Shown here piece by piece: positions 1 through 40,330 of a stretch of DNA of 64,000 nt. The position numbers and the translations under genes were made by a program. The notes under the pieces were generated by a model that was not told the DNA's origin, searched no databases, and saw only the letters and a program-made list of their open reading frames with translations. The stretch's first letter is position 1. Each line of letters begins with the position of its first letter. This DNA is from Burkholderiales bacterium (GTDB lineage: Bacteria > Pseudomonadota > Gammaproteobacteria > Burkholderiales > Burkholderiaceae_E), in NCBI GenBank assembly GCA_027487815.1, contig JAIYCW010000017.1, positions 248,001 through 312,000 on the forward strand, given 5' to 3'.

Positions 1-773
1 GCCAGGGCAAACAAAAAACCGCCCATCGCTCCAACCCCGGCAGCTTCGGTAGGTGTAAAAAAGCCACCGTACATCCCGCCCATCACCAGGCCGAAAAGAA
101 GTATCACCCCCCAGATGTTGCGAAGCGCAATCCAGCGCTGCCGCCAGCTTGAGCGCTCTCCGGGCGGCCCCAGCTCCGGATGATGCTGGGTCACGACACC
201 TGCAGCAAAGATATAAAGGCTCGCGGCGAGGATTCCTGGCACGATGCCCGCAGCGAACAAGGCACCGATGCTGGTCTCGGTCATGATGCCGTAGATCACC
301 ATGATCACCGAAGGCGGAATCAGAATGCCCAGCGTGCCCCCCGCGGCGATTGAACCCGCTGCGAATGAGTCCGAATAGTTAAACCGGCGCATCTCAGGCA
401 TTGCGACCCGCGCCATCGTGGCAGTGGTAGCAATCGATGAGCCGCAAATGGCACCAAAGCCTGCGCACGCCGCGACTGTTGACATAGCCAGCCCGCCCCG
501 CCGATGGCCAATAAAAGCGTAAGCGGCTTGATATAGCTCTCGCGACAACCCTGCGCGAGTGACGAAGTTACCCATCAGCACAAAAAGGGGGACCACCGAC
601 AAGGTGTATTTGGCGATATCGAGAATTTCGGTAGTGGTGCTGGATACCGCAGCGGGCCAGGACCGTATCAACCCCAAGCCAATCAGGCCAACCAGGCCCA
701 TGGCAAAAGCAATCGGCACACGCAGCGCCATCAACAAAAACATAGCGGCAAAACCGAGCGCGGCTTCAATCAT
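1..773 (-). CDS. dctM: TRAP transporter large permease DctM, N-terminal part (runs off left edge)
   Basis: Large membrane subunit of a tripartite ATP-independent periplasmic (TRAP) transporter, which carries the ion-coupled substrate path in the inner membrane. About 257 residues are present and the C-terminal part lies outside the window. The visible protein is a run of hydrophobic helices with family-typical segments such as GNFVTRAGLS, CAGFGAICGSSIATTATMA (serine/threonine/glycine-rich) and GGTLGILIPPS. The ATG at 773 overlaps the dctQ stop as ATGA, so translation is probably coupled. Upstream dctQ and dctP complete the transporter. The family assignment is firm. The substrate (C4-dicarboxylate, other carboxylate or keto acid) cannot be read from the sequence. 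Confidence 0.93.
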   Translation of the reverse strand, partial: MIEAALGFAAMFLLMALRVPIAFAMGLVGLIGLGLIRSWPAAVSSTTTEILDIAKYTLSVVPLFVLMGNFVTRAGLSRELYQAAYAFIGHRRGGLAMSTVAACAGFGAICGSSIATTATMARVAMPEMRRFNYSDSFAAGSIAAGGTLGILIPPSVIMVIYGIMTETSIGALFAAGIVPGILAASLYIFAAGVVTQHHPELGPPGERSSWRQRWIALRNIWGVILLFGLVMGGMYGGFFTPTEAAGVGAMGGFLFAL

Positions 774-1243
774 GCGCCCTGCTCCTGGGATTCACCGCGA
801 GGCTGAAACGCAAGCCAGCCATGCGCCGCGGCGCACGCCAAAAGCATAAGGGCAGTCAGGTAGTAAAACGGGCCTAGCGGAAGATGCAGGGACGAGGTGG
901 TATCACCCTGCTCAAGGGTGCGACCGGCACGCACCCAAACCAGCCATGCCGACGCCGCCAGCAGCCCAACACACAAAAAATTAGCCAGCCGGTGTTGCCA
1001 GTCCAATGCGCTTTCTGGCAAAAACTTGTCGAGCAGATCAAACAGAATATGCTCGCCATGCAACGAGGTGAGCGGCATCGCCACAAAAATCAACAAGAGC
1101 ATCAACAGCTCGGTGACTTCAACCACGCCAGGAATCGATGAACCAAAAGCCTTGCGGCCCACCACGTCGCAAAAGGTCAGCACCATCATGGCAAACAACA
1201 TCAGGGCTGCCACCGCACCAAGGGTGGTTCGCAAGGGCTTCAT
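770..1243 (-). CDS. dctQ: TRAP transporter small permease DctQ
   Basis: Small membrane subunit of the TRAP transporter, about 157 residues with four predicted helices, which bridges the binding protein and DctM. Segments such as LTFCDVVGRKAFGSSIPG and EVTELLMLLLIFVAMPL fit the DctQ family. I chose the ATG at 1243. An in-frame GTG at 1273 lies inside a stem-loop and would add only ten residues that do not look like part of the family. The stop overlaps the dctM start by four bases. The substrate is not deducible. Confidence 0.9.
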   Translation of the reverse strand: MKPLRTTLGAVAALMLFAMMVLTFCDVVGRKAFGSSIPGVVEVTELLMLLLIFVAMPLTSLHGEHILFDLLDKFLPESALDWQHRLANFLCVGLLAASAWLVWVRAGRTLEQGDTTSSLHLPLGPFYYLTALMLLACAAAHGWLAFQPRGESQEQGA

Positions 1244-2397: not shown

Positions 2398-3381
2398 TTA
2401 GGTGATAAGTCCGAGGGCTCGGGCCCGTGCATAGGTCAACGCCGCCACATGCTCGATGGTTGGCACAGGCTGATGAACCCGGGCGGCCAACTCAATCACC
2501 GAGCCCAGAAGACCTTCCAATTCGGGGCGACGGCCCTTCTCGAAATCCTGCAAGGTGGATAAACGAGCACGCCCGATAGTGCGAGCCATGGTGATGCGGG
2601 TTTCTGTGTCGATCCCGGTTTCCACACCCAGAGCCCTGGCCACCTGGTTGCTTTCCTCAATCAGCCGCCGGGCTAACGCGACCAGGCCAGGTTGCGCGAG
2701 CATTTCATCCATGCGCATTCCAGTGAGCGCGGCCAGCGGATTAAATGCCAGATTACCAATCAACTTGACCCAAAGATCGCGGCGGATATCAGCCGATACC
2801 ACCGCTTCAAAGCCAGCCTGATTCAGCGCCAGCCCAAGAGCCTCAAGCCGCTTGCTCGTGCCACGCTGCACATCGCCGATAATCAGTTTGCGATGCGCGG
2901 TTTGCGCAATCACACCCGGCGCCATCATTTCACCGGCCACATGCACGACGCAGCCGACCAGATGCTGCGCCGGAATCAAGGTCAGCAGATGACCACCGGG
3001 ATCGAGTGCTTTGATCGGCTGCCCGTCAAACTGACCGCCCTCCTTCAGAAAGTACCACCATGGCACGCCATTGATGGCGGGCAACACCATCGTGTCATTA
3101 CCTAGAAGTGGCCCGATCTGAGGCAATACCTCGGCCATCGCTGGCCCCTTCACTCCAAGCACTACAAGATCCTGATGGCCCAGCCCAGCGGCTGAGTTGC
3201 GAGCATCGACTCGAACTGTGAAATCGGACCCCGCAATTCGGTCCTCCAGCTGGAGCCCGCGGGTTTGCAAAGCCGCGAGATGATCTCCACGCGCTACGAC
3301 TTTGACCTGATGGCCGGCCCGGGCTAACCAGGCTGCGATCACGCCACCGATCGCACCAGCGCCGATCACACATACCCGCAT
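2398..3381 (-). CDS. 2-dehydropantoate 2-reductase family protein (KPR/ApbA)
   Basis: NADPH-dependent 2-ketoacid reductase of the ketopantoate reductase fold, about 327 residues. The N-terminus has the Rossmann signature CVIGAGAIGG followed by the VVARGDHL segment that recognises NADP. The C-terminal helical domain has the catalytic-lysine region WVKLIGNLAFNPLAAL. The ATG at 3381 overlaps the LysR stop (TGATG), so the two are translationally linked. It may be PanE of pantothenate synthesis, but this family has many paralogues acting on other 2-keto acids. A position between a LysR regulator and a TRAP transporter fits a catabolic paralogue at least as well. Family is sure, substrate is not. 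Confidence 0.8.
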   Translation of the reverse strand: MRVCVIGAGAIGGVIAAWLARAGHQVKVVARGDHLAALQTRGLQLEDRIAGSDFTVRVDARNSAAGLGHQDLVVLGVKGPAMAEVLPQIGPLLGNDTMVLPAINGVPWWYFLKEGGQFDGQPIKALDPGGHLLTLIPAQHLVGCVVHVAGEMMAPGVIAQTAHRKLIIGDVQRGTSKRLEALGLALNQAGFEAVVSADIRRDLWVKLIGNLAFNPLAALTGMRMDEMLAQPGLVALARRLIEESNQVARALGVETGIDTETRITMARTIGRARLSTLQDFEKGRRPELEGLLGSVIELAARVHQPVPTIEHVAALTYARARALGLIT

Positions 3382-37773: not shown

Positions 37774-38913
37774 TCAAAGTTCGATCCACTGGTCCAAGGT
37801 GCCGCGGGAGCGAGACGTGACCTTGATGCGCACCGGCATCCATTGCTGATCCGGACCCAGCCATACCTCAATATTGGGTTCGTCCGCCCCAGTGGCTACC
37901 CGCACCAGCTTGATTGCATTCATCGGTGCGGCGCCCGGCAGCGCAAGAGTCTCTGGGCCGGCGTTTCGATAACTGGCACGAGCGACGCCAGATGAGGTCA
38001 TTTCGGGAAAGCTCACCACCTGACCACTTTCCTGCAGGGCTGGCACGGCCCTTAGCACCAAGCCGAGCTGAATCAGGGTTGATAAGCGATCCTGTATTCC
38101 CGGCTGCCAAGCGGCCTGGGCACCACCAGTTCCAAACCGGACTTGCCCGGTTGCCCGATCCACGGTAGCCACCCGCGGTCCACGCTTGCCGCGCTGTTCG
38201 TTAAAAAGCAAGGGCTCCAGTCCGTCCGGGCCAGTGATCCCTTCACTGACTTGAGTGACGACCCCGGAATACACCCAAGCCATCACCCCCTCAGCGCGAG
38301 CCTCGGTGCTCATCGAGTATTTTCCCTCGTTTACAGCCATCCGAAATTGCAGGCGAGCGATCGGAGCTGCATCCGTGGACTCTCCATAAAACACTTTATA
38401 AGCCAGCTGCACCGACACGGGCTCAGGCAATACCGCAGCCCAAACCCGCGGTAACCCGTCGCGCGCCTGACTCACCGGCACTGACGTTGCTTGCCCGGCT
38501 TGCGCTGGTTCACTATTTTCAACTGAAGCAACTGCTTCTTGATTGGCGCCAGCGGCTGGTGCGTCCGTCTCTGCCGGGGAAACGCCGGCATTCTCGCCAG
38601 TCGCGGCAGCCGTGGAGGTACCCCCGTTCGGCATGGCGTCAGGAGCAGCTTTGGCTGGCATCGGCTGTTGGTTTACCTTGGCCACCTGGCGCAGGGGCGT
38701 GATATGTGCAGGCTCCGGTGCCACCGGCTGCGGCGGCAAAACCGACACCCTGGTCAGTTGCTCCATCACCTGAGCGTCTGGTTCTGCTTCAGGCTCATTG
38801 ATCAAGTCTCGCCAAAGAAATGCCACGATTAGATGGAGCAAAACGACGCCCAGGGCTATACTTGCGGCACGGGAATGGCGTTTATTGGCTGATAGACGGA
38901 TCGCAGAAATCAC
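37774..38913 (-). CDS. DUF3108 domain protein with N-terminal membrane anchor
   Basis: About 379 residues. The N-terminus has one transmembrane helix (IALGVVLLHLIVAFLW), then a long Ala/Pro/Glu-rich linker (about 45-160), then the DUF3108 beta-rich domain (AYKVFYGESTDAAPIARLQF through SRGTLDQWIEL). The layout is TonB-like but lacks a TonB C-terminal domain. Function unknown; the domain is periplasmic by topology. The start is uncertain: GTG 38913 fits the anchor, while a TTG at 38982 would extend into the divergent regulatory region. It diverges from the PEP-CTERM gene. Confidence 0.78.
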   Translation of the reverse strand: MISAIRLSANKRHSRAASIALGVVLLHLIVAFLWRDLINEPEAEPDAQVMEQLTRVSVLPPQPVAPEPAHITPLRQVAKVNQQPMPAKAAPDAMPNGGTSTAAATGENAGVSPAETDAPAAGANQEAVASVENSEPAQAGQATSVPVSQARDGLPRVWAAVLPEPVSVQLAYKVFYGESTDAAPIARLQFRMAVNEGKYSMSTEARAEGVMAWVYSGVVTQVSEGITGPDGLEPLLFNEQRGKRGPRVATVDRATGQVRFGTGGAQAAWQPGIQDRLSTLIQLGLVLRAVPALQESGQVVSFPEMTSSGVARASYRNAGPETLALPGAAPMNAIKLVRVATGADEPNIEVWLGPDQQWMPVRIKVTSRSRGTLDQWIEL

Positions 38914-38922
38914 AGCGATAGT

Positions 38923-38980
38923 GTCGGTTAAATTTACATACCCAGTCAAAACAAAAGGTGAAGTCAGGTTAACCGTCGAC
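38923..38980. promoter_or_regulatory. Possible enhancer-binding site upstream of the sigma-54 promoter
   Basis: CGGTTAA (38925-38931) is repeated as the inverted TTAACCG (38969-38975), and the second copy lies in the palindrome GGTTAACC. The repeats end 25 bases before the -24 element of the sigma-54-type promoter. Sigma-54 promoters need an upstream activator site, so these are candidates. No activator gene is in the window. Confidence 0.4.
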
Positions 38981-39000
38981 AAATCAATAGGTTACAACGC

Positions 39001-39016
39001 TGGCACAGCACTTGCT
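39001..39016 (+). promoter_or_regulatory. Sigma-54 (RpoN) -24/-12 promoter
   Basis: TGGCAC-N5-TTGCT matches the sigma-54 consensus, with the invariant GG (-24) and GC (-12) separated by exactly ten bases. It lies 38 bases before the ATG of the PEP-CTERM gene, so the start of transcription would be near 39027. In betaproteobacteria, PEP-CTERM genes are known to be under RpoN with the PrsK/PrsR two-component system. Confidence 0.85.
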
Positions 39017-39053
39017 TAGGTTAGGCATCTCAAACAGTTATCGGAGAGTGAAT

Positions 39054-39815
39054 ATGAAAAAAATTATTTTGGCTAGCCTGTTGGCAGCAGTTGGCGCAGC
39101 GAATGCTGGCACCATCGTTTTGGATGACTTCAACACCGCATCGTCGGTAGTTGACACCACAGCAAACGGTTCAGCTGCAACTTCTGGCGCAACAGCCATT
39201 AGCGCCGGCACCCGTACAACCACCGTGAACTTGCTTGCGCCTACTGGCACATTCCTGAACAACTCGGATGCAGCAACTGCCGCTATCGGTGGTGGTCTTC
39301 TTAGCATGAGCAACGGTACCGGCAACGCAAACGGCGGCTCAAACAGCGAAATCAGCCTGGCTTACAACCTGAATGCAGGTTTGACCTCCGGCCTGAACGC
39401 AATCACATACGCTCAAGTCGCGATGAATGTGATTTTTGCTGATCCAGGTCAGCCAAGCGGTGTGGGTCTGCCAAGCGGTTCGATCGGCTCGCAAACCCGC
39501 GCAGCCACTTCGGGCGGCAGCATGGTTTGGACACTCTCGCCAGCTTTGCTTACCACTGGCGGCTCGTTTGCAATTCAGTTTCTGGGTAACCCTGGTTGGG
39601 ACATGAGCGCAAGCCTGTTGAGCATCCAGTACACCTGCGCCTCAACTGGCCTGCCCGGTACTGGTCAGACCCTTGCCACCAACTCCGGATTGTTCGGTTC
39701 GAGCAATAACGCCGACAGCTGCACCCCCACGAAGGTTCCCCTGCCAGGCACAGTAGCTCTGCTCGGTATCGGAATGCTTGGTGTGGCAGCTGCCCGCCGT
39801 GCCAAGCGTGCCTAA
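39054..39815 (+). CDS. PEP-CTERM sorting domain protein
   Basis: Exported 253-residue protein. Signal peptide MKKIILASLLAAVGAANA, then a low-complexity, Thr/Ser/Gly/Ala-rich body (about 20-225). The C-terminus is a PEP-CTERM-type sorting signal: VPLPGTVALLGIGMLGVAA followed by basic ARRAKRA. Exosortase would cleave there and anchor or release the protein at the outer surface, usually for extracellular polymer or floc formation. No exosortase is in the window. The ATG at 39054 has GGAG upstream. A sigma-54 promoter precedes and a terminator follows, so it is monocistronic. Confidence 0.9.
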   Translation: MKKIILASLLAAVGAANAGTIVLDDFNTASSVVDTTANGSAATSGATAISAGTRTTTVNLLAPTGTFLNNSDAATAAIGGGLLSMSNGTGNANGGSNSEISLAYNLNAGLTSGLNAITYAQVAMNVIFADPGQPSGVGLPSGSIGSQTRAATSGGSMVWTLSPALLTTGGSFAIQFLGNPGWDMSASLLSIQYTCASTGLPGTGQTLATNSGLFGSSNNADSCTPTKVPLPGTVALLGIGMLGVAAARRAKRA

Positions 39816-39837
39816 TTAGCCGCTTTGCAAATCAAAG

Positions 39838-39863
39838 GCCGCCGCGAGGCGGCTTTTGTTTTT
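39838..39863 (+). terminator. Rho-independent terminator after the PEP-CTERM gene
   Basis: Stem GCCGCC/GGCGGC (39838-39843 and 39848-39853) with loop GCGA is followed by TTTTGTTTTT. It ends 15 bases before the start of the next plus-strand gene, isolating the sigma-54-driven transcript. Confidence 0.85.
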
Positions 39864-39877
39864 GTGGGCCAGAACTG

Positions 39878-40330
39878 ATGCGCATCAGTCTCCTCAAGCT
39901 TCCGCTCTTTCCACCCGCTGTGCTGGTGGTGCCCAAGCGCCTGCCGGGACGACTGATCGGGTTGAGCCTGGGGCCCTTGATTGTGATCGAGCAGGCCTCC
40001 GCCACTGATCACCCCACCTTGATTCATGAGCTGGAACATTCCCGGCAGTTTTGGTGTGGCGGACTGGTTTTGCATTTTCTACGCTACTGGCTTTCGAGGC
40101 AGTATCGCCTAGAGGCAGAACTTCGGGCATTTACTCTCGAACTCAGCCATTGCTCCATCAAGGAGCAGGGTATTCGCCTACCGCTATCCGCCGGAGCTCT
40201 TGCCAGCGGCTACAGCTTGGAGCTCACCGCTGATCAATGCCAATCGCTTTTGACAGAACGCCTGAAAGAACTTCAGAGCAAAACGGGCTTGTTGGATAGC
40301 TCGTCCGGATTGGCCACTCGCGGCGGATAG
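39878..40330 (+). CDS. Small protein with HExxH zinc-protease-like motif
   Basis: A 150-residue protein of unknown family. It holds HELEHSRQFW at about residues 50-59, an HExxH motif, and 20-35 residues later YRLEAELRAFTLEL, where an acidic residue could be a third zinc ligand. The N-terminal hydrophobic stretch GLSLGPLIVIEQA resembles the strand before such helices. No signal peptide is evident. It starts 15 bases after a terminator and its last 58 bases overlap the convergent TPM gene. A metallopeptidase or inactive relative is inferred from the motif only. Confidence 0.6.
   Translation: MRISLLKLPLFPPAVLVVPKRLPGRLIGLSLGPLIVIEQASATDHPTLIHELEHSRQFWCGGLVLHFLRYWLSRQYRLEAELRAFTLELSHCSIKEQGIRLPLSAGALASGYSLELTADQCQSLLTERLKELQSKTGLLDSSSGLATRGG

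Follow-up and report, generated by a model that had tools for sequence, protein, structure and literature searches.

The window analyzed here, i.e. the whole 64-kb stretch C84:248001-312000 of a 3.70 Mb assembly in 91 contigs (hereafter the host genome; order Burkholderiales, family Burkholderiaceae_E according to GTDB), contains a gene for a PEP-CTERM surface protein whose upstream region is the subject of this report. The features of the locus are compiled in Table 1. The PF07589 score of the encoded protein lies above the Pfam cut-off, in agreement with the original prediction of a PEP-CTERM gene at this place, and its N-terminus resembles a signal peptide as judged by eye. The gene is followed by a terminator-like stem-loop and, as far as its sequence context indicates, is likely transcribed as a single gene. 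On the other side, the PrsR box described below is found just upstream of the assumed start of a divergent DUF3108 gene; PrsR bound at this box could affect the divergent gene too.

Table 1. Position and assignment of the features at the PEP-CTERM locus (numbering of the 64-kb window).
Feature	Position	Strand	Basis or remark
Divergent DUF3108 gene	37774-38913	-	Start taken as the GTG at 38913; the longest ORF begins at 38982
Putative PrsR box, TGTCGGTTAAATTTACA	38922-38938	+	Sequence match to motif 1 of Haft et al. 2006
Left repeat arm CGGTTAA	38925-38931	+	Inside the PrsR box, no separate element
Right repeat arm TTAACCG	38969-38975	+	In the spacer, chance-level
Predicted IHF site, AATCAATAGGTTA	38982-38994	+	9/9 to consensus WATCAANNNNTTR
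-24/-12 sigma-54 promoter, TGGCACAGCACTTGC	39001-39015	+	Sequence match
Predicted transcription start	39027	+	Sigma-54 geometry, 12 nt downstream of the C in the -12 GC
Likely ribosome-binding site, GGAGAG	39043-39048	+	By eye
PEP-CTERM surface-protein gene	39054-39815	+	253 amino acids; PF07589, 22.7 bits (cut-off 20.7)
PEP-CTERM sorting signal, VPLPGT variant	39735-39800	+	Residues 228-249
Terminator-like stem-loop	39833-39858	+	Sequence

Upstream of the gene, the sequence TGGCAC-N5-TTGC with the GG at 39002-39003 and the GC at 39014-39015 is present, separated by 38 nt from the ATG at 39054, exactly as had been claimed. A single match of this kind is weak evidence by itself: with up to one mismatch, the sigma-54 pattern occurs 14 times in the window at 11.0 occurrences expected, and the exact pattern is found 27 times in the host genome versus 9 times for the reversed pattern. 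A 17-bp element ends at position 38938, leaving a spacer of 62 nt to the TGGCAC at 39001. We assign it to the 17-nt motif ending in TTTACA that was described in front of proteobacterial PEP-CTERM genes (Haft et al. 2006, PMC1569441), the two being compared by the text description of the motif, namely by length, TTTACA 3' end and spacer. This changes two points of the original prediction, which had taken the repeat CGGTTAA/TTAACCG for the PrsR site and had regarded the promoter as a clean example that could help to define this site: the published PrsR box is the element at 38922-38938, and it has been in the literature since 2006. It is an exact match and the sole match with at most one mismatch in the 64-kb window; since 39 of 100 shuffles also hold such a match, the box alone is not rare. 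The third element, within the spacer, was identified against WATCAANNNNTTR, which we take to be the IHF consensus. Perfect matches to this consensus occur twice in the window (1.05 expected), and the site between box and promoter is one of them. Box, IHF consensus and sigma-54 site fall together within 94 bp. What goes beyond chance is the combination of the three elements at the spacing seen in relatives.

In the host genome, TTTACA-N50..80-GGCAYN6TGC has seven matches and no control match, and five of the seven are followed by PEP-CTERM-type genes; a sigma-54 site with TTTACA 50-80 nt upstream is thus beyond chance. Thirty PEP-CTERM loci were considered (38 matches listed, 23 of them over the Pfam cut-off). 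Leaving out C13:646 and C74, where the start falls at the contig end, and the transporter-like C23, 27 PEP-CTERM-type genes were retained as the upstream set, not all of which reach the Pfam cut-off; start codons and tail classes were assigned by eye. For ten of these 27 genes, the 100 nt before the start contain a sigma-54 site that matches at 9/10 or better. Among these ten promoters, the box is matched at 10/11 or better at a distance of 77-81 nt in four and at 8-9/11 at 58-111 nt in five; in the promoter at C56:10473 the box is found at a distance of 151 nt, and the IHF match, a perfect one, is located at -75. On side-by-side reading of the upstream regions, TTGATTT or its complement was noticed between box and promoter, and in all ten promoters the 75 nt upstream contain a site that matches IHF at 8/9 or better, in eight of them at 9/9. 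The ten promoters are therefore the discovery set for the IHF element and no proof alone. An eleventh candidate at C84:331338 reaches 8/10 for the sigma-54 site and only 6/9 for IHF. A MAFFT alignment of four of the promoters was set aside because the box was misaligned in one row.

Two further loci may be mentioned. At L064 (G000:C10), rpoN (400-1971, +) is convergent with a PEP-CTERM gene (2538-3197, -), with one small ORF between them, and the PEP-CTERM gene itself has a sigma-54 site together with a perfect match to the IHF consensus. In the G000:C84:82559 region (L076), an ORF at 385-1020 (-) is preceded by a module of box, sigma-54 site and IHF-like element (8/9); it has a signal-peptide-like start as judged by eye and lacks a PEP-CTERM tail, and it is a possible further member of the regulon.

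The genus is represented by a single genome in the collection, and a contig scan yielded one distant relative of the window gene (31% identity). As close orthologues for footprinting are thus lacking, promoters were compared by pattern. For this purpose, 74 genomes of the host's family were searched with a pattern consisting of box and sigma-54 site and devoid of any IHF part. This resulted in 42 matches in 23 of the 74 genomes and no control match. Of the 41 distinct sites, four come from the host genome. Downstream of 30 of the 41, an ORF ending in a PEP-CTERM-like tail was recognized by eye, the tails at L144 and L149 being loose; in the other 11 the automatically picked ORF was wrong, truncated or tailless, and these were counted as misses. 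A second search, with a stricter box pattern and again without IHF part, covered 250 genomes of the order, including eight of the family, and gave 77 sites in 38 genomes with no control match. Seven sites belonging to the family were set aside, leaving 70 sites in 35 genomes. Of 20 fetched from these 70, 16 have a PEP-CTERM-like tail downstream (by eye), and the four with a wrong, truncated or tailless automatically picked ORF were likewise counted as misses. Furthermore, a three-part pattern that included the IHF element produced 27 matches in 20 of the 74 family genomes and no control match; as it presupposes IHF and its downstream genes are unchecked, none of its counts enters the argument.

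The box thus recurs upstream of PEP-CTERM genes in the host genome and in relatives, and the comparison sharpens its definition for the family to TGTCGR-N5-TTKACA. At positions left free by the search pattern, G is found at position 2 in 40 of the 41 family sites, a purine at position 6 in 39 and T or G at position 14 in all 41; A occurs at position 14 in some degenerate boxes of the host genome. The family sites also bear on a small ORF of the window, 39878-40330 (+), which follows the terminator-like stem, encodes an HExxH motif (HELEH) and has no match in Pfam or NCBIfam. Homologues with 42% identity are the first ORF behind a promoter with box and sigma-54 site at L150, L157 and L163 in three family genomes. 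Since they are located directly behind three such promoters, the 39878-40330 protein looks like a part of the PrsR regulon; the listed ATG of the homologues falls at about the predicted +1, so that the real start may be further in.

Because neither search pattern contained an IHF part, the spacers could be inspected for this element. In the family, 28 of the 41 spacers contain an IHF match of at least 8/9, compared with a mean of 2.1 and a maximum of 6 in 400 shuffles, and 11 contain a 9/9 match (shuffle mean 0.1, maximum 2). In flanks of equal length, IHF matches were found in 1/41, 3/40 and 2/40 cases. Outside the family, where the first ~66 nt of each spacer were scanned and shuffles were made from the same letters, matches of at least 8/9 were found in 37 of the 70 spacers (mean 11.2 and maximum 20 in 200 shuffles) and 9/9 matches in 11 of the 70 (mean 0.8, maximum 4). 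Chance matches are frequent in the order-wide set because the spacers are AT-rich, and shuffle means and maxima are therefore given beside the counts. In the 53 out-of-family sites with 78-81 spacing, the consensus TAA-N4-TTGATTAT emerges unprompted. A match of at least 8/9 is missing from 13 of the 41 family and 33 of the 70 out-of-family promoters; the IHF element is therefore common, not universal.

Over the range of 71-101 covered by the searches, the distances between box and promoter cluster near 80, 90-92 and 101 bp, i.e. one helical turn apart. Measured from the box start to TGGCAC, 29 of the 41 family sites have a distance of 77-83, the others having 72, 89, 90, 91, 92 (four sites) and 101 (four sites). 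Outside the family, 54 of 70 sites have a distance of 78-82, the remainder having 87 (two), 89, 90 (five), 91 (two), 92, 94 (two), 100 and 101 (two). The off-mode spacings fall into bins one or two turns away in 12 of 16 out-of-family cases (P 2e-4) and in 11 of 12 family cases, or eight of nine once orthologues had been merged manually. Rayleigh-type figures overstate the significance, because the sites of one genus are related to each other.

IHF sites are found in either orientation around shared centres. With the IHF dyad placed at the W end of WATCAA, a placement that fits the data and also the IHF-DNA structure, the matches of both orientations mirror about a centre 19.5 bp before TGGCAC, and 30 of 71 lie exactly there. 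A second group of 12 of the 71 is centred at -29.5 and -30.5; away from the main mode the phasing is less strict and the coherence modest (R 0.40, n 29). At spacing 92, three of four promoters, orthologues of one another, keep a box-to-bend distance of 52.5 and have the extra turn on the promoter side of the bend; the fourth, L141, does not fit. At spacing 101 both joints gain a turn. The window promoter, with 51.5 from box to bend and the bend at -19.5, is near the commonest geometry, its IHF site being in the less common orientation.

All proteins called for by such a promoter are encoded in the host genome: rpoN, a cluster prsT-prsR-prsK-epsB2 in which PrsR scores 716 bits (cut-off 502.6), and both IHF subunits (ihfA, 166 bits at a cut-off of 111; ihfB, 154 bits at a cut-off of 115). 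Together with the PrsR box upstream of the gene, this supports the control of the PEP-CTERM gene by RpoN and PrsK/PrsR that had been proposed originally. Exosortases A and B (XrtA, XrtB) are both present as well, and the sigma-54 promoters are distributed unevenly over the tail classes. Among the 27 genes, sigma-54 sites scoring 9/10 or better are present in the 100 nt before 9 of 11 genes with a PxPG tail versus 1 of 16 others (Fisher P 1e-4, with tails assigned by eye and the pattern noticed first and tested on the same genes), and none of the seven IPEP-tail genes of the host genome has such a site. This is read most simply if the PrsR-RpoN promoter serves the putative clients of exosortase A. 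Contigs C13 and C73 (L074, L075) hold clusters of PEP-CTERM genes with mostly IPEP tails and without a good sigma-54 promoter, perhaps exosortase B clients under other control.

Taken together, we consider it very probable that the region upstream of the PEP-CTERM gene acts as an RpoN promoter that depends on an enhancer and belongs to the XrtA/PEP-CTERM regulon, and in which a PrsR box and an IHF-bent loop are kept in helical register. According to this model, which is built on sequence comparison, PrsR phosphorylated by PrsK would bind the 17-bp box at 38922-38938, and IHF would bind at about 38982 and bend the DNA. Measured from the centre of the bend, PrsR would be about five helical turns away on one side and the RpoN-RNA polymerase, at 39001-39015, about two turns away on the other. 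The bend would carry PrsR onto the waiting RpoN-RNA polymerase, the promoter would melt, and the PEP-CTERM gene would then be transcribed from about position 39027. The sequence statistics bear out the box, the sigma-54 site, the IHF-consensus element in the spacer, the stepwise spacing of about one helical turn and the presence of the protein genes. That PrsR rather than another activator occupies the box, that IHF rather than another factor occupies the middle element and that bending is needed for promoter activity are inferred parts of this model.

Several other explanations have to be weighed against it. The inverted repeat CGGTTAA/TTAACCG, which the original prediction had put forward as the docking site of the activator, does exist, is at a plausible upstream distance and has its left arm within the actual box. 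A 7-bp inverted repeat also turns up when 38923-39056 is shuffled by dinucleotides (28% of 1000 shuffles) and in 179 of 477 window tiles of 134 bp. Both arms are absent from the 300-nt upstream regions of the other 26 PEP-CTERM-type genes of the host genome and from the other 40 distinct family promoters, so that the enrichment before PEP-CTERM genes that was to be looked for is lacking. As a chance-level repeat shared with no other promoter examined, it was rejected as the enhancer, and it is refuted as a shared element; we give its role as the activator site next to no credence. It is also very improbable that the sigma-54 match is coincidental and the gene uses a sigma-70 promoter. Such a coincidence is suggested by the near-chance frequency of single sigma-54 matches in the window and by the fact that about a third of the exact matches in the genome may be chance, but the composite of box and sigma-54 site has no control matches in 1, 74 or 250 genomes. 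A crude scan found no sigma-70-like site in 38700-40000, where only 0.6 would be expected by chance.

If the promoter depends on RpoN, the box might still be read by another activator. The host genome encodes three strong Sigma54_activat matches (232-240 bits) besides three weak ones (<27 bits), and the binding of PrsR to the box is a prediction from sequence; NtrC (C88:32095) or the third activator (C51:16409) would be the candidates. The former scores as NtrC with 678.6 bits, however, the latter stays with 350 bits below the PrsR cut-off of 502.6, and the species profile of the box equals that of PrsR, PrsK and PrsT exactly, on which ground the box was assigned to PrsR (PMC1569441). We regard a different activator as decidedly unlikely. 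Somewhat more room, still small, is left for a middle element that is not an IHF site and instead a curved or alpha-CTD-binding AT-rich stretch or a site for a bending protein of the HU/Fis type. Many out-of-family spacers are AT-rich and their shuffles already give 11.2 of 70 matches at 8/9 or better, and besides the two IHF subunits the host genome encodes a further member of the HU/IHF family, which looks HU-like by eye. Against this, the enrichment concerns the IHF consensus specifically, and this consensus is rare in flanks of equal length and appears in both orientations about the same centre, as expected for the site of one bending protein. The reading with PrsR, IHF and RpoN thus remains the preferred one.

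Beyond the single locus, we think it reasonably probable that PEP-CTERM promoters of this order share a rigid architecture of PrsR box, IHF bend and RpoN site and that this promoter class is matched to a sorting class. The centres of box and bend would be separated by about 52.5 or 62.5 bp, equal to five or six turns, and TGGCAC would follow the bend at about 19.5 or 30 bp. Whole turns could be gained at either joint, and IHF sites of both orientations would share one centre. In the host genome, the class would serve the VPxPG proteins, probably the clients of exosortase A, and not the IPEP proteins, probably those of exosortase B, so that transcription and sorting would be matched. This reading adds IHF as a predicted third factor to the PrsR/RpoN regulon. 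If it is true, half-turn insertions will kill the promoter and full-turn insertions will not, which makes a little-studied regulon testable by simple reporter constructs. PEP-CTERM proteins have a part in the floc formation of activated-sludge bacteria. For the regulation of their genes, the need for more experiments has been pointed out (PMC9850573).

The closest published case is the description by Haft et al. (PMC1569441), according to which the motif and a sigma-54 motif precede 99 of 167 proteobacterial PEP-CTERM genes with a mean spacer of 62.8 nt (SD 10.6). The window shares with it the 17-nt motif ending in TTTACA at a spacer of 62 nt, the -24/-12 motif, the single PEP-CTERM gene downstream and the encoded PrsK, PrsR and PrsT; the 38 nt from sigma-54 site to ATG lie within the published range of 23-221 nt (mean 71) to the start codon. 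The regulatory description in the accessible part of that paper comprises two motifs, with neither an element in the spacer nor helical phasing, whereas here an IHF consensus is found in the spacer and the spacer length steps by about one helical turn across relatives. For pepA of Aquincola tertiaricarbonis RN12, a sigma-54 start has been mapped, together with dependence on rpoN1 and a TGGCAC/CTGCTT -24/-12 motif, and an upstream enhancer had been predicted earlier (PMC9850573). RpoN dependence was thus measured there and is predicted here; the accessible text on pepA mentions no IHF site, unlike the promoter in the window.

With regard to IHF, its usual role at RpoN promoters is stated in the available part of PMC7962754, where the Geobacter PEP-motif exosortase substrate GSU1943 is tabled in the RNA-seq comparison of an IHF study. 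This listing hints at IHF acting on such a gene elsewhere and is not a report of the present architecture. PEP-CTERM and 'integration host factor' co-occur in papers that, by their titles, deal with Geobacter biofilms and fruit-fly gut symbionts, and a paper on CsrA in Geobacter (PMC11934962) contains the relevant terms together. In the literature searched, which leaves most subscription papers outside, no paper with both PEP-CTERM and IHF as whole words was found, and among the papers listed there was no report of an IHF element or of phasing at PEP-CTERM promoters. The kind of promoter is already known, and the predicted IHF element with its helical geometry is apparently unreported. IHF-assisted sigma-54 promoters are a known class, in which the IHF site is located between the enhancer and the -24/-12 promoter. 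The window promoter resembles this class in the location of its IHF consensus, and differs from it in its predicted activator, PrsR, and in a bend site that is seen in either orientation near fixed helical steps across many PEP-CTERM promoters.
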